A DNA stretch of 64,000 nucleotides, taken from assembly GCF_000521215.1 (NCBI RefSeq), contig NZ_KI928930.1:98778-162777 (forward strand), in the 5' to 3' direction. The notes below the pieces were generated by a model. It saw nothing but the letters and a program-made list of their open reading frames with translations. It did not search any database and was not told the origin of the DNA. Made by a program: the position numbers and the translations under genes. Position 1 is the stretch's first letter, and each line of letters opens with the position of its first letter. Of the stretch, positions 14,696-20,676 are shown piece after piece. This DNA comes from Labrenzia sp. DG1229. Lineage in GTDB: Bacteria; Pseudomonadota; Alphaproteobacteria; Rhizobiales; Stappiaceae.

Positions 14696-16099
14696 ATGTC
14701 CCAATATGATCTTGTCGTCATCGGAACCGGCCCGGGCGGCTATGTATGTGCGATCAAGGCGGCTCAGCTTGGTCTGAAAACCGCCGTTGTCGAAAAACGC
14801 GCAACCCTTGGCGGCACCTGCCTCAATATCGGCTGCATTCCCTCCAAGGCGCTCCTTTATGCGTCCGAGATGTTCGAGGAAGCAGGCCACGGTTTTGAGA
14901 AGCTCGGCATCAAGGTCTCGAAGCCGAAGGTCGATCTTCCCGGCATGATGGAGCACAAGACCGACACCGTGGATGCCAACGTCAGCGGTGTCGCCTTCCT
15001 GATGAAGAAGAACAAGATCGACGTTCACACCGGTACCGGCAAGGTCCTTGGGGCCGGCAAGGTGGAGGTCACCGCCGACGGCGGCAGTGCGTCCATCTTG
15101 GAAACAAGGAATGTCGTGATCGCGACCGGCTCCGATGTCATGCCGCTGCCCGGTGTCGAGATTGACGAAAAGCAGATTGTGTCGTCTACCGGGGCTCTGG
15201 AACTTGAGAAGGTTCCGGGCAAACTGGTTGTCGTGGGTGGCGGTGTCATCGGCCTGGAACTGGGATCCGTTTGGAACCGGCTCGGATCAGAGGTCATCGT
15301 GGTCGAATTCATGGACAAGATCCTTGGTCCGATGGATGGCGATGTTTCCAAGAACTTCCAGCGGATGCTGAAAAAGCAGGGCATGACGTTCAAATTGTCA
15401 TCGAAAGTCACCGGTGTCACGAAAAAGGGCAAGGGCCTTTCTGTCAGCGTCGAGCCGGCAAAGGGTGGAGACGCTAAGGAGATCGAGGCCGACATTGTCC
15501 TGGTCGCCATCGGTCGCCGTCCCTACACGGAAGGCCTTGGACTTGAGGCAGCAGGTGTCGCTCTTGATGATCGTGGCCGCGTGCAGATCGACGCGCACTA
15601 CAAGACGAATGTCGACGGTATCTATGCAATTGGCGACGTGGTTGCCGGACCGATGCTGGCGCACAAGGCAGAAGACGAAGGCGTGGCGATTGCCGAAATT
15701 CTCGCAGGCCAGGCCGGACACGTGAACTACGATGTCATTCCGGGGGTAGTTTACACCCAGCCGGAGGTGGCCTCTGTCGGCAAGACCGAAGAAGAACTGA
15801 AGGCAGGAGGTGTCGCGTACAAGTCCGGCAAATTCAACTTCTCCGCCAACGGCCGGGCTCGTGCCATGAATCACACCGACGGTTTTGTGAAGGTACTGGC
15901 AGATGCCGCGACCGACAGGGTCCTCGGTGTTCACATCGTCGGCTTCGGCGCGGGCGAGATGATCCATGAAGCAGCGGTTCTGATGGAATTCGGTGGCTCT
16001 TCGGAAGATCTGGGGAGAACGTGTCACGCGCACCCGACCATGTCCGAAGCGGTCAAGGAAGCCGCCCTTGCCACCTTTGCAAAGCCAATTCACTCCTGA
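14696..16099 (+). CDS. lpd: Dihydrolipoyl dehydrogenase (E3)
   Basis: This flavoprotein reoxidises dihydrolipoamide of the 2-oxoglutarate dehydrogenase complex and passes electrons to NAD. The 467 residues have the FAD motif GTGPGGYVCAIKAAQLG and the redox disulfide in GGTCLNIGCIPSKALL. The NAD motif is VVVGGGVIGLELGSVW. The second FAD contact is IYAIGDVVAGPMLAHKAEDEG. The C-terminal active-site histidine lies in HAHPTMSEA. The start lies downstream of GAGGCAAAGGCG. It closes the mdh-to-lpd TCA block and is followed by a hairpin that may terminate transcription. Confidence 0.97.
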   Translation: MSQYDLVVIGTGPGGYVCAIKAAQLGLKTAVVEKRATLGGTCLNIGCIPSKALLYASEMFEEAGHGFEKLGIKVSKPKVDLPGMMEHKTDTVDANVSGVAFLMKKNKIDVHTGTGKVLGAGKVEVTADGGSASILETRNVVIATGSDVMPLPGVEIDEKQIVSSTGALELEKVPGKLVVVGGGVIGLELGSVWNRLGSEVIVVEFMDKILGPMDGDVSKNFQRMLKKQGMTFKLSSKVTGVTKKGKGLSVSVEPAKGGDAKEIEADIVLVAIGRRPYTEGLGLEAAGVALDDRGRVQIDAHYKTNVDGIYAIGDVVAGPMLAHKAEDEGVAIAEILAGQAGHVNYDVIPGVVYTQPEVASVGKTEEELKAGGVAYKSGKFNFSANGRARAMNHTDGFVKVLADAATDRVLGVHIVGFGAGEMIHEAAVLMEFGGSSEDLGRTCHAHPTMSEAVKEAALATFAKPIHS

Positions 16100-16249: not shown

Positions 16250-17748
16250 ATGACGACGCCAAGCAGCTTCACGATACTGCATGCCTGCCTTTGGCTGCTG
16301 TTGGCTGGTCTCGCGGCACCTGTCTTTTTCTGGCCGGATCACACGATTGCGCATGTGGATGATCTCTTTTTCATACCCTGGGCGGCGGAATATGCCGCGA
16401 CGGGAAATCACGCAATCCACTGCTTGCAGTTCAGTTTCCCGGACTTGAAAACTATCACCTTTATACCCGCTTCCATCTGATCCTTTCCGGCTTGTTCCTG
16501 GATCAGTTCGGTGTCAGCAGACAAAGCGTTGTTGCTTATGAGTATCTTTGCTTCCTGCTGACGACGCTTGCTTTCACGGCTCTGTGCCTGACCATCAGAT
16601 TGCCGAAAGCTGCGTTGATCGCGCCGCTGTTACTTGTCCCGACTTATGTCGTGACCGGGTTCCGGCTTGAGGTCACTGCCTGCGTCTTCTGGATGTTGGG
16701 CCTCTCCCTGTTGTTCTGGGCTGCAAGACAGAAGGACGCCGGAACGGCGGATTTTCAGGTATCCTGTCTCAGGACACTGGCGAAACTGGCCTTGGTCTTT
16801 GCACCACTGGCCTCACCAGCTCTCTTTGCCTGGGGCCTGGGCGCTATTGTTGTTCACGACATCTGGAGGTTCGCGTTCCGGGAAGCAAAGATTGTTGCAT
16901 TGATCTTCGAAAATGCTATCGCGCTTGCTCTGGGAATGGTGATCTTTTCGCTCAGCATCGACTTTCAGTATCGCGAGTTCGTCGACCAGATCGTCTTCCA
17001 TGCAGCAAGGTCGACCGGACACGGGATCAATGATGAGTCGCTTGGCAGGGCGGCGATATATGCCGTTGTCGGAGCTGTGCTGACAAGATGGTCGCGTCCT
17101 GCTGCGCTTATCTGCCTGATATTGTCCGTCGGTCAGGGACTTGCTGCAATTCTTCACGACAAGGTTCTGGTACGCAATCTCGCCGCGGGTATGGTTTTTC
17201 TGGTGGCGCTCGATGCAGTCACGAGGAAAAGGTTCCAGCGAACCGCGTACGTGCTTTACACGCTGGTATTCCTCGTCCTCACGGCCAACTTCCTGGCTTT
17301 TTATGTCCTCTCCGATCGTGCGCCCGGCCGGGCTGCAGCAACCCGGGACTACTGGAACGATATCGATGCAGACAACCGGGTCTTCATCGACGAGACCATG
17401 GCGCATCACTATCTCGATCATCAGACCCGCGAAGCTGTTTCATGGACATGGGGTCGGGAGTTCCCGCTGGCGCGCGCAGAGGAATTGAACGAATTGAAAG
17501 CCGGTGAGGTCTGGTATCTGAGCCCTTATACGCTGTTTGCCTATCTCAAGGGACACACGGCAATTGCCAAAGCGCTCGCCGACGATATCGACTACCGGCG
17601 ATTGCCCCAGCTTTCCTGTGTCATGGGCCGGCATTCCTGCCGCCTTCCGGCGGAACGATGGACCATGCTTCGCCTTCAGCGGGATGAAGACCGGATCATG
17701 GTGACTGACTACGCTTCTGATCGCGTGTTTACGCTTCCGGCAAACTGA
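16250..17748 (+). pseudogene. Multi-pass membrane protein, GT-C glycosyltransferase-like, broken by a 1-nt deletion
   Basis: The ATG at 16250 opens a frame with a membrane anchor and a first-loop HVDDLFFIPWAAEYAATG. The adjacent acidic pair there resembles the catalytic loop of GT-C enzymes such as ArnT/PMT. Around 16403-16415 the conserved reading moves to the next lower frame (NPLLAVQFPGLENYHLYTRF..., then LSGLFLDQFG). It stays open to 17748 with some nine hydrophobic helices and a soluble C-terminal domain of about 110 residues. One missing base explains the break. The intact protein would have about 500 residues. The TTG at 16492 is not a convincing independent start. It is convergent with the methyltransferase gene, with seven bases between stops. 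Confidence 0.7.
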
Positions 17749-17755
17749 GGAAATC

Positions 17756-18535
17756 TCAACCCGGCTTCGAAGCCGTGATGACAAAGTGGGTTATCGAGAA
17801 AAAGAAGCGTCCTGATTTGGAGAGCTGAACCTGTTCCTCGGCCCAGTCATTCGCGTCGTCCTCCGACACCGTGCCCTTCCTGACAACATATTGTTTCATG
17901 AGATGGATCATCATGTTCGGCATACCGTCGGGATGCAATTCGGTGCTGTTGAACGGGATTGCAGTCACGTCGTCGACCCGGAAACCGGCATCACGCAAGA
18001 TGGGCGGCAACACGGCGGGGACGCAACGTTCCACGAGATGTTTGTCCCAGGTGTCGAGCATCAGTTTCATGCGCTCCGGCTTGTCGCTGAACCAGGCCGT
18101 GGTATCCCAGTGCATGTCACCGACAACCAACTGGCCGCCGGGCTTCAGAATGCGCTTAACCTCGGCTATGGCGCCGGCAAGATCGTCCAGATATTCGAAC
18201 ACCTGCAACGAAACCGCCTTGTCTGCGGAATTTCGACCAAGCGGCAGCTCCGTGGCGGTGCCGCGCAGGATCTCGACATTTGAACACTGTGCACAGCGCT
18301 TGACGGCAGCGTCATGCATGTCTTCACTCGGGTCGATTCCGAGAACTTTTCCTGCGTCTCCGATGGTGCGGGAAAGTTCGAGCGTCAGCAGTCCGTTGCC
18401 GCAGCCGATATCGGCAATGATATCACCTGGTCTTGGTCGCAAGGCATCGAATGAGGCGCGTCTGCGTCTGGAAAAATCCGCCCCCAGATAGGCCTCCTCC
18501 AGAAGCCTTGTAGTCTGTTCGTCGAATTGGAGCAT
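17756..18535 (-). CDS. Class I SAM-dependent methyltransferase downstream of a MerR gene
   Basis: I start at the ATG at 18535 (MLQFDEQTTRLLEEAYLG), with GGAAG nine bases upstream. The 259-residue product has the SAM-binding motif I (IIADIGCGNGLLTLEL), motif II acidic residue (GIDPS), AVSLQVFEYLDDLAGAIAEVKRILKPGGQLVVGD and a C-terminal FFFSITHFVITASKP strand. These are typical of UbiE/ArsM-like enzymes. No three-cysteine arrangement of arsenite methyltransferases is evident beyond CAQCSN. The substrate is unknown. It is 16 bases behind the MerR gene on the same strand, so it is probably in the same metal-linked operon. Confidence 0.85.
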   Translation of the reverse strand: MLQFDEQTTRLLEEAYLGADFSRRRRASFDALRPRPGDIIADIGCGNGLLTLELSRTIGDAGKVLGIDPSEDMHDAAVKRCAQCSNVEILRGTATELPLGRNSADKAVSLQVFEYLDDLAGAIAEVKRILKPGGQLVVGDMHWDTTAWFSDKPERMKLMLDTWDKHLVERCVPAVLPPILRDAGFRVDDVTAIPFNSTELHPDGMPNMMIHLMKQYVVRKGTVSEDDANDWAEEQVQLSKSGRFFFSITHFVITASKPG

Positions 18536-18551
18536 CTGATCATCTTCCGCG

Positions 18552-18971
18552 TCAGTGATTGTCCAGGCACTGGCTGTGATCGCCGAATGCCTTGAGCACA
18601 TTGCACTGGGTCACCGTATGATCGCCTTGGCAACTCGTAGCTATCCGGGCGAGTTCCACCTCGAGTTTTTTCAGATGAACAATGCGCTCGCGTATCGACT
18701 TGAGCTGGTCGGCCGCAATCCGGTCCGCTTCGTGACAGGGCTTGTCAGGGTGCTGGCTGAGTTCAATCAGGTCGCGGATCGCCGGCATGGGAAGACCGAG
18801 ATCCCGGCTGTGCCTGATGAAACGGAGACGCTCACGATCGGTTTCCCGGTACCGCCTCTGATTGCCTTCGGTGCGCACAGGCGGGTCAATCAGGCCCTCT
18901 TTTTCATAGTACCGGATGGTCGGTACTTTCACACCGGTCTGTTTTGACAGTTCGCCGATTGAAAAATTCAT
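18552..18971 (-). CDS. MerR family heavy-metal-responsive regulator (Zn/Cd/Pb-type)
   Basis: The start is the ATG at 18971 (MNFSIGELSKQTGVKVPTIRYYEKEGLI). The winged helix-turn-helix covers residues 1-70, followed by a dimerisation helix. The metal site shows Cys79 (D-K-P-C-H) and Cys114/Cys123/Cys135 in a C-x8-C-x11-C arrangement, with nearby histidines in GDHT and GDHSQC. This resembles CadR/PbrR/ZntR-type proteins, which untwist a 19-20 bp spacer promoter on binding divalent metal. It is divergent from a cation-efflux gene, and the intergenic region contains a matching promoter. Confidence 0.92.
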   Translation of the reverse strand: MNFSIGELSKQTGVKVPTIRYYEKEGLIDPPVRTEGNQRRYRETDRERLRFIRHSRDLGLPMPAIRDLIELSQHPDKPCHEADRIAADQLKSIRERIVHLKKLEVELARIATSCQGDHTVTQCNVLKAFGDHSQCLDNH

Positions 18972-18981
18972 CAAAAACCTC

Positions 18982-19012
18982 TTGAAGCTCTAGTCGCTAT
19001 AGGGATTAGAAG
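18982..19012 (+). promoter_or_regulatory. MerR-type promoter/operator between merR-like and cation-efflux genes
   Basis: The -35 TTGAAG (18982-18987) and -10 TAGAAG (19007-19012) are separated by a long 19-base spacer. The spacer is filled by an imperfect inverted repeat (GCTCTAG tcg CTATAGG, five of seven paired positions). The elongated spacer with a dyad inside it is the signature of MerR-activated promoters. It faces the efflux gene at 19054. Confidence 0.7.
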
Positions 19013-19053
19013 ACTCTGCAAGGAAGAAATCAAGACACTTTGCGGAGAAAGAA

Positions 19054-19692
19054 ATGGGCGCCTGCTGCGGACACTCTCACGGAACTTTTGACGGCATGTC
19101 GAAAGACTACCGCCGCCGTCTTTGGCTCGTGATCGGTTTGAATGCGGCCATGTTCATCGTTGAAATGGGGGCGGGTCAGGCGGCAGGATCAAAGGCGCTG
19201 CAGGCGGATGCTCTCGATTTCTTCGGTGATGCCGTGACCTACGGAATTTCGATGGCCGTGATCGGCGCGTCTTTGAAGACCCGCGCTGTGGCGGCGCTTG
19301 CAAAGGGTGTCAGCCTGCTGCTGATGGGTTTGTGGGTCGCAGGAACAACAATTCACCAGGTTTTTGTTCTTGGCGTGCCTCAGGCCGCCGTGATGGGTTC
19401 TGTCGGGTTTCTCGCGCTGGCGGTCAATCTTGCCAGTGTGATGCTGCTGGTGCGCTACAAGGATGGTGATGCCAATGTGCGGTCGGTCTGGCTCTGTTCG
19501 CGCAATGACGCGATCGGCAATGTTGCGGTCATGATCGCTGCGATGGGTGTCTGGGGCACGGCGACTGCCTGGCCGGACCTCGTGGTTGCCGGCCTGATGG
19601 CTGCGCTTTTCGTAAGCTCTGCGGTTCAGATCCTGAGCCAGGGAATTCGGGAATTCAGGCACGACACCCTGATATCCACGGAACGCTCCTGA
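19054..19692 (+). CDS. Cation efflux (CDF-like) membrane protein with altered metal ligands
   Basis: The 212-residue product has a Cys/His-rich N-terminus (GACCGHSHG) and about six membrane helices (for example LWLVIGLNAAMFIVEMGAG). The CDF landmark E-x-G...S-K-A-L-Q-A-D-A-L-D identifies the family. In most CDF zinc/cobalt exporters, transmembrane helices 2 and 5 each carry H/D-x3-D ligands. Here they are Asp55-x3-Asp59 and Cys148-x3-Asp152, an unusual ligand set. The cytoplasmic C-terminal dimerisation domain of large CDFs is missing, leaving the short form. It is controlled by a MerR-type promoter, so it probably exports a heavy metal. Confidence 0.85.
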   Translation: MGACCGHSHGTFDGMSKDYRRRLWLVIGLNAAMFIVEMGAGQAAGSKALQADALDFFGDAVTYGISMAVIGASLKTRAVAALAKGVSLLLMGLWVAGTTIHQVFVLGVPQAAVMGSVGFLALAVNLASVMLLVRYKDGDANVRSVWLCSRNDAIGNVAVMIAAMGVWGTATAWPDLVVAGLMAALFVSSAVQILSQGIREFRHDTLISTERS

Positions 19693-19710
19693 TTAGACAG
19701 ACCCGAAGCA

Positions 19711-20676
19711 TCAGGCAGATGCCCCGGGTTCAGTATTGCCGAGATGCACGAGGGTCACTTCAGGTGGAACGCCTATTCTGACGGGCAGCAGAGAGCAGCC
19801 GAGACCGCCGGAAACAACAAGGTTCCGGGGCTCGGCCGAAAGACCAAGGTGCCGGATCAGCTTCGAACCCGAGAACTCGACATAGTGCCCATAAGGGTAC
19901 TTTTTGCCGTGCCTGGCCGGGTATCCTGGCCGGTAACCGAAACAGTTGATCTGGCCGCCATGGGTGTGCCCGCTCACGGTCAGGCTGACGCGGGAAGGAA
20001 CGTCGTCGAATATGTCGGGTTCGTGTGCCATCAGAAGGACGGGTGCATCATCGGTAATTTGTGCAAGGGTGGCGGACAGGTCGTCGAGACCCTGCATAGC
20101 CTTCCGCTTCAGCTTTAGGTTCGGACCGAGTGCCATCTGGTCTTCCAGGCCTGCCACCCAGAATGGATGGCCGTCCTTTTCAAGGCGGACCGCTCGATTT
20201 TGATAAAGAGGAACACCCGCGTTGAGAAGGGCCTGTCCGTATTTCGTTGGGCCGCTTCCGGACAATTGTGCCTCCTCGTCATCCCACCAGTCGTGGTTTC
20301 CCAGGATGGCATGTGTGCCGAGCGGCGCGGAAAGGTTTCCGAATTGGTCCGCCCAGGCCTGTGGTGGAATCGGACCGTATTGCATTTTGTGATCAGCGAC
20401 GTAGTCCCCCAGCATCAGGATGATGTCCGGTTTCAACTCATTGGTTCGCTCGACAATAAAACGGACCCGGTCGAGACCCATCCAGGGGTCACAGATATGC
20501 GGGTCTGCGATGAGCGCGGCCGTGAGGTGCAGGTCTTTGGGCCAATTCGGGGGTGTCAGATAGTGGCGTTGGACCCGTAGACGGAAAGGTTCGATGCCGA
20601 CTGCGTAGGCGGCGGTCGACATGGTGCTGAGGGCTGCGATGCCCAAGCCTTGCAGGAAATTTCGCCTGGAAATCAT
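19711..20676 (-). CDS. Tat-exported metallophosphoesterase (YkuE/YaeI-like)
   Basis: The 321-residue product starts with a twin-arginine signal (SRRNFLQGLGIAALSTMSTAAYA). Calcineurin-like motifs follow in order: IADPHICD, LMLGDYVAD, ILGNHDWWDD, LMAHEPD and VSGHTHGGQINC. The C-terminal NLVVSGGLGCSLLPVRIGVPPEVTLV strand pair is typical of YkuE-type membrane-surface enzymes. The family includes UDP-diacylglucosamine and other lipid-linked phosphodiesterases. The substrate here is unknown. It is convergent with the cation-efflux gene, with 18 bases between stops. Confidence 0.93.
   Translation of the reverse strand: MISRRNFLQGLGIAALSTMSTAAYAVGIEPFRLRVQRHYLTPPNWPKDLHLTAALIADPHICDPWMGLDRVRFIVERTNELKPDIILMLGDYVADHKMQYGPIPPQAWADQFGNLSAPLGTHAILGNHDWWDDEEAQLSGSGPTKYGQALLNAGVPLYQNRAVRLEKDGHPFWVAGLEDQMALGPNLKLKRKAMQGLDDLSATLAQITDDAPVLLMAHEPDIFDDVPSRVSLTVSGHTHGGQINCFGYRPGYPARHGKKYPYGHYVEFSGSKLIRHLGLSAEPRNLVVSGGLGCSLLPVRIGVPPEVTLVHLGNTEPGASA

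Follow-up and report, generated by a model that had tools for sequence, protein, structure and literature searches.

CadR-CDF divergons are described on pWW0 (in ISPpu12) and on pKLH202 in the accessible text of Permina et al. (PMC1526738), with predicted cadmium transport. According to the accessible text of a second study (PMC4447125), three Pseudomonas strains given the cloned CZC module of pLM20P2 (Paracoccus yeei) had higher MICs for Cd, Co and Zn, and A. tumefaciens had higher MICs for Cd and Zn; only some of the 15 hosts benefited from the module, MICs fell in a small number of cases, and the ISPpu12a module conferred resistance in no strain. As to methyltransferases, CzcN of the czc clusters is an isoprenylcysteine carboxyl methyltransferase in the available portion of another report (PMC12029693). 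Our search of the literature found no measured metal response for the MerR-CDF clade treated here, and nothing on Roseibium combined with zinc and MerR.

Here we describe a MerR-CDF-methyltransferase locus of a 7.6-Mb Roseibium (Stappiaceae) genome. The locus lies in a window of 64,000 nucleotides, the whole stretch of DNA that was analysed, and forms a MerR-CDF divergon of CadR/ZntR-like character, in which a lineage-specific methyltransferase gene stands behind the regulator gene (Table 1). An earlier note, made from the letters alone, had described a MerR gene, a methyltransferase gene and a divergent short CDF gene, and each element that it stated is found in the sequence. Its 16-base gap between merR and the methyltransferase gene holds with ATG 18535 as the methyltransferase start. 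The mechanical ORF (17756-18601) begins inside merR, and the start at ATG 18535 is supported because the orthologues align from there and because the longer versions in three relatives (G061, G065 and G067) run into in-frame stops; the enzymes of these three are intact from the ATG equivalent to 18535. We consider it probable that the locus serves Zn(II)/Cd(II) homeostasis as a MerR divergon of the CadR/ZntR type and that the methyltransferase is a separate, lineage-specific enzyme. In our judgement, two points stand out: the Cys148 ligand of the CDF subfamily, and the genome G061, which lacks one part of the locus, as set out below.

Table 1. Features of the MerR-CDF-methyltransferase locus, in window coordinates
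Feature	Coordinates	Strand	Remarks
class I SAM-dependent methyltransferase gene	17756..18535	-	259 aa; Pfam Methyltransf_11
gap, merR stop to methyltransferase start	18536..18551	-	16 bp
merR	18552..18971	-	139 aa from ATG; Pfam MerR_1 and MerR-DNA-bind
MerR-type operator/promoter of CDF gene	18982..19012	+	conserved layout
short CDF-family exporter gene	19054..19692	+	212 aa; Pfam Cation_efflux

On the far side of the methyltransferase gene, the gene of a 418-aa protein (16492-17748) converges on it across a gap of 7 bp. Neither Pfam nor NCBIfam gives a match to the 418-aa protein at E <= 0.001. Its sequence changes rapidly, with 44-48% identity in many members of the genus, and its gene adjoins the conserved lpd. 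No structured RNA is found at gathering thresholds between positions 15000 and 23000 of the window. Recent acquisition, considered on composition, was rejected, as the GC content shows no break across the genes (0.53-0.60).

The promoter of the CDF gene has a -35 element TTGAAG (18982-18987) and a -10 element TAGAAG (19007-19012), separated by a 19-bp spacer, CTCTAGTCGCTATAGGGAT, that contains the MerR dyad, in agreement with the elongated MerR spacer proposed earlier. This layout, a TTG plus a dyad in a 19-bp spacer, recurs in 47 of 47 family loci and in 73 of the 78 divergent intergenic regions overall, and in the five regions that miss it the dyad is still visible by eye. The counts were made with a fixed pattern, generic promoter scoring having been dropped since it picked mixed sites. 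Mononucleotide shuffles gave the layout in a mean of 0.07 of 78, a figure that serves as a guide and not as a test because the pattern was composed after the sequences had been viewed. Within the same genome, the strict pattern has a single match, and up to two mismatches add one further operator-like site, adjoining a MerT-like locus; we claim no wider MerR regulon, as backward-pattern controls matched 11 and 13 times. A sigma-70 scan of 17700-19760 returned no promoter with a 16-18-bp spacer, which carries little weight since the shuffles averaged just 0.8. On contig C6 of this genome (L223 4174-5207), a second MerR gene has an operator-like site; opposite it stand a MerT-like ORF and a small ORF rich in Cys (GDCCVFC), and the whole is perhaps a miniature mercury locus.

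The regulator carries an HTH domain, a cysteine in the dimerisation helix and two loop cysteines, the marks of the metal-sensing CadR/PbrR/ZntR branch. The four cysteines counted in the earlier note are C79, C114, C123 and C135, with H118 between C114 and C123. In an alignment of 80 MerR sequences, which counts the window protein twice and includes E. coli ZntR, C79 is present in 80, C114 in 79, C123 in 80 and H118 in 34. The C-terminal tail, H132-x2-C135-x3-H139 (window 18555-18578), has H132 in 67, C135 in 68 and H139 in 51 of the 80 sequences, and among family members each of its positions is kept in 42 of 46; judging from this residue pattern, the tail could form a second metal site.

The best NCBIfam match of the regulator is TIGR02047 (CadR-PbrR) at 119.5 bits, under the cut-off of 151.45, and TIGR02043 (ZntR) gives 98.5 bits, under the cut-off of 167.95. 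Because both scores lie below the cut-offs, we place the protein in the CadR/PbrR/ZntR branch only, and not in CadR/PbrR/ZntR proper. E. coli ZntR has the same architecture, and its cysteines align with those of the window protein in the dimerisation helix and at the two positions in the loop. It differs in having a CC pair where the window protein has a single cysteine, the aligned member of the pair changing between two alignments, and in its target: ZntR is known to control zntA, a P-type ATPase gene, and not a divergent CDF gene. The near-invariant cysteines shared with ZntR thus speak for a Zn/Cd divergon, and the scores below the curated CadR and ZntR cut-offs speak against it.

The NCBIfam CueR and MerR models also match the window protein, at 95.9 bits each, and for the MerR of an Acetobacter relative CueR is the best-scoring model, its 127.3 bits falling short of the cut-off. 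Such scores would suit a regulator that senses Hg(II) or Cu(I) instead of Zn/Cd, next to a CDF protein that exports another metal. We regard this as very unlikely, given that the CadR-PbrR model scores higher on the window protein (119.5 bits) and that CDF proteins transport divalent metals. Furthermore, another MerR of the genome adjoins a MerT-like ORF, and roughly 1 kb separates a MerR paralogue from a CopA-like ATPase; the MerT-like, CopA-like and FixI-like names used here are presumptive and rest on motifs.

The CDF protein matches Pfam Cation_efflux with 53 bits (cut-off 26.6; 4.8e-14). With NCBIfam TIGR01297 it scores 67.1 bits, below the cut-off of 82.35, this being a model of 285 positions and the window protein being without the C-terminal part. 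The same model gives 57.5 for the pWW0 relative and 76.1 for the Acetobacter relative, both below the cut-off, and 87.8 for the pLM20P2 relative, above it. Specifically, the window protein stops where FieF and ZitB continue into the C-terminal cytoplasmic domain, and it bears a CCGHSH motif near its N terminus. MmCDF3 of Maricaulis maris, attributed to Russell and Soulimane in 2012, is likewise said to be a CDF protein without a cytoplasmic domain and reportedly binds zinc and cadmium; we suspect that it belongs to the same subfamily. A structure model of the window protein shows six helices, but with a mean pLDDT of 45.7 from a four-sequence alignment.

The ligand residues are D55-x3-D59 in TM2 and C148-x3-D152 in TM5, so that TM5 is without the H/D-x3-D motif which characterised Zn/Cd/Mn-type CDF proteins have in TM2 and TM5 alike. 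D55, D59 and D152, which fall on the known metal ligands of FieF and ZitB, are present in all 121 aligned relatives (37 of them from Roseibium). C148 aligns with the TM5 histidine of E. coli FieF and ZitB, and its position is occupied by Cys in 118 of the 121 close relatives and by Phe in three. The D-x3-D and C-x3-D residues had thus been read correctly before, but the description of these ligands as altered does not stand, since they are the norm of the close relatives. Because TM5 C-x3-D is common to these relatives, we file the protein as a CDF subfamily and not as ZitB-type or FieF-type. The Cys148 ligand allows a preference for soft metals. In the more distant relatives checked (pLM20P2, pWW0 and a Xanthomonas plasmid) the position is Phe. 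With Cys in the closer relatives of this short, domain-less CDF protein and Phe in the more distant ones, at the place of the FieF TM5 histidine, nature offers a clean experiment on how a thiolate affects CDF metal selectivity.

CDF relatives are found in 72 of 289 genomes of the class (E <= 1e-25) and match 622 plasmid records (E <= 1e-15). Within Roseibium, 37 of 45 genomes have the CDF gene, with a divergent MerR beside all 37, and the divergent pair is present in all 47 CDF-bearing family genomes fetched (37 Roseibium, 10 from other genera). That check covers 47 of the 49 CDF-bearing genomes, setting aside G074 and G077 (32-33% identity), as well as the broken second CDF copy of G038. These results support the earlier description of a metal-sensing type of MerR that faces a CDF exporter over an elongated-spacer promoter. 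At the level of the class, the pair occurs at 29 of 69 loci, which are 69 of the 74 CDF places outside this genome; the search for MerR used the window protein in tblastn at E <= 1e-5, a setting that would pass over remote MerRs. Neither the second CDF copy of G012 nor that of G062 has an adjacent divergent MerR, which, together with the CueR match of the Acetobacter regulator, counts against a Zn/Cd divergon. At the MerR-less class loci there are 37 immediate upstream genes; 21 of them, under 220 aa, were scanned, of which at least 10 match ArsR-type HTH families and one is of the PEMT/ICMT type. The Acetobacter CDF relative sits in front of TolC and RND efflux genes; this placement and the ArsR-type matches speak for the Zn/Cd divergon. 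On pROLI83, a Roseobacter litoralis plasmid (L201 2744-5184), a CDF gene of 70% identity shares its start with an overlapping transglutaminase-family gene and is followed by a gene for a PEMT-type membrane methyltransferase, and an HTH regulator gene is divergent.

With regard to the metal, the genome has two E1-E2 ATPase matches only, with CopA-like and FixI-like motifs, and neither appears to carry a ZntA-like motif. The locus is likely to provide an inducible zinc/cadmium exporter for a Roseibium genome without a recognised ZntA-type ATPase. The MICs of pLM20P2, the cadmium prediction for the CadR-CDF divergons, the separate MerR on the MerT side and the restriction of the ATPases to CopA-like and FixI-like ones make Zn(II)/Cd(II) our best guess for the exported metal, with Co and Pb as possible further substrates. 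The pLM20P2 module is the closest tested relative that we came across; its restricted host range, its lowering of some MICs and the lack of resistance from ISPpu12a count against the Zn/Cd reading. The substrates of pLM20P2 and ISPpu12 may not transfer to the window protein, because these relatives have Phe and not Cys at the position of C148 (read from pWW0 in the case of ISPpu12). A CDF protein devoted chiefly to Co(II), Ni(II) or Fe(II), its selectivity tuned by Cys148, would fit both the difference of Cys148 from the histidine of FieF and ZitB and the raised Co tolerance that the accessible text of PMC4447125 gives for the pLM20P2 relative in three strains. As the regulator is closer to the Cd/Pb/Zn sensors than to others, we consider this unlikely and keep zinc and cadmium as the preferred metals.

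The methyltransferase matches Pfam Methyltransf_11 at 5.1e-22 (scan of the longer ORF), and it reaches no NCBIfam cut-off among the matches listed (25 of 34). Its best similarity among those matches is to arsenite methyltransferases, at 71.6 bits against a cut-off of 510, and PRK11873 gives 67.3 bits (cut-off 263). By sequence, the solved proteins nearest to it are a mixed group (MitM, a sterol methyltransferase and others), and its structure model, with a mean pLDDT of 49.7 from a four-sequence alignment, is too weak for use. The enzyme of R. album is 95% identical. Relative to the window gene, dN/dS is 0.085-0.154 in eight of ten pairs and 0.27 in the closest pair (where dS is only 0.08), and one pair is not computable; these codon comparisons show that the gene as such is under purifying selection. 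The value of 0.085 for G063, a genome that has lost merR and the CDF gene from the locus, alone proves no selection since that loss, because it averages the time before and after.

The weak similarity to arsenite methyltransferases raises the question of whether the enzyme is a functional arm of the system, one that is co-expressed with MerR and, in a two-pronged detoxification with the CDF protein, acts on a soft metal(loid) or on a thiol metabolite by methylation. ArsM enzymes have several conserved As(III)-binding cysteines. Among the 11 Roseibium methyltransferases, C45 and C81 are present in 11 and C171 in 10, as such a role might require, but across 25 homologues C81 is the sole invariant cysteine. 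In the same direction as a functional arm, the gene lies behind merR in 9 of 9 Roseibium genomes that hold both the methyltransferase and the CDF gene, and merR and the methyltransferase gene are separated by 15-16 bp here and in five relatives. Four others have gaps of 51, 67, 74 and 343 bp, which makes co-transcription with merR likely in this genome but not a general feature. The side of the operator counts against a functional arm: the methyltransferase gene is on the merR side, where the accessible text of PMC1526738 gives no regulation or only repression.

The distribution of the gene points away from such a role. The methyltransferase is found in 11 of 45 Roseibium genomes, against 37 of 45 for the CDF protein, and in two of 42 other family members, and within Roseibium its presence is not associated with that of the CDF gene (9/2/28/6; Fisher p = 1). 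In a Lpd+XerD tree of 38 of the 45 genus genomes and G012, which leaves out six genomes having neither CDF nor methyltransferase and G059 (no Lpd hit) and in which several backbone supports are low, the 11 genomes with the methyltransferase fall inside a clade of 22. Fitch parsimony counts three changes there, a pattern that a single gain with later losses, or a few gains at one site, would explain. In G063 the methyltransferase is intact; merR, the CDF gene and a recognisable operator are gone from the locus (the absence of merR refers to the locus), and the genome as a whole has no CDF match.

Beyond Roseibium, the methyltransferase is unlinked in all seven genomes or plasmids found with homologues of both proteins, although homologues at class level may not be orthologues. 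In six genomes (G005, G006, G207, G209, G229 and G311), the methyltransferase homologue (34-51% identical) and the CDF homologue are on different contigs or more than 100 kb apart, and on a Ruegeria conchae plasmid they are about 185 kb apart. Among 20 chosen neighbours of distant methyltransferase homologues, Pfam reveals no metal transporter. Beside the G311 homologue are a CMD gene and, together, an ArsR-family HTH gene and an AHSA1 gene, and 'peroxidase-related enzyme' genes lie near both methyltransferase homologues on Ruegeria plasmids. The linkage of methyltransferase and regulator in related genomes, on which the earlier note had let its reading depend, thus stands within Roseibium (9 of 9) and fails outside it (0 of 7).

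We therefore rejected metal(loid) detoxification by the methyltransferase, against which the phyletic pattern, the lost linkage and the ArsM models count, and judge a functional arm quite unlikely. The earlier suggestion of a soft metal or metalloid, as far as it was drawn from the methyltransferase, is not borne out: the gene is rarer than the CDF gene and not associated with it, persists in G063, is unlinked in seven of seven cases outside the genus and matches no ArsM model at cut-off. Most likely the methyltransferase is a passenger, probably with no role in metal detoxification. One genome counts against this reading, which leaves it unexplained: G061 retains the methyltransferase and an intact merR and has no CDF match in its 680-contig assembly. 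If MerR and the methyltransferase were a real two-gene unit in Roseibium, a clade that would then have supplemented its Cys-ligated, domain-less CDF protein with the methylation of a thiol or metal(loid) species made under Zn/Cd stress, G061 would be a remnant that displays the unit; we hold this to be quite improbable. At the G061 locus (L103 6592-7939), no CDF gene lies between a metallophosphatase gene and merR, and upstream there is just a degraded dyad.

Taken as a Zn/Cd divergon with a passenger enzyme, the locus would work as follows. A MerR dimer would sit on the 19-bp-spacer promoter between merR and the CDF gene, and Zn(II)/Cd(II), possibly Co(II)/Pb(II), would bind at a Cys79'/Cys114/Cys123 site. 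By analogy with the MerR family, the metal-bound regulator would untwist the promoter and so turn on the CDF gene. D55, D59, C148 and D152 would form the transmembrane site by which the CDF protein then exports the metal. The methyltransferase is probably expressed from the promoter of merR itself and not metal-activated.

Compared with known systems, the window locus shares its core with both plasmid-borne relatives. Like the window protein, the pWW0 CDF protein has a CadR-type MerR divergent from it and is without the C-terminal cytoplasmic domain; it is 34% identical, has 298 aa and an N-terminal extension, carries Phe in place of Cys148 and is followed by lspA, with no methyltransferase gene within the stretch seen. 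On pLM20P2, a MerR (44% identical) is likewise divergent from a CDF protein (46% identical). That protein has an N-terminal domain matching CopZ/MerP-type metal-binding models, which the window protein is without, as well as Phe in place of Cys148, and lspA is again downstream. The czc clusters, to go by the available portion of PMC12029693, resemble the window locus in placing a methyltransferase gene within a metal-resistance cluster; the type differs, CzcN being an isoprenylcysteine carboxyl methyltransferase and the window enzyme a class I SAM methyltransferase. CadR-type MerR-CDF divergons have already been published, and the window locus is a further example of them.
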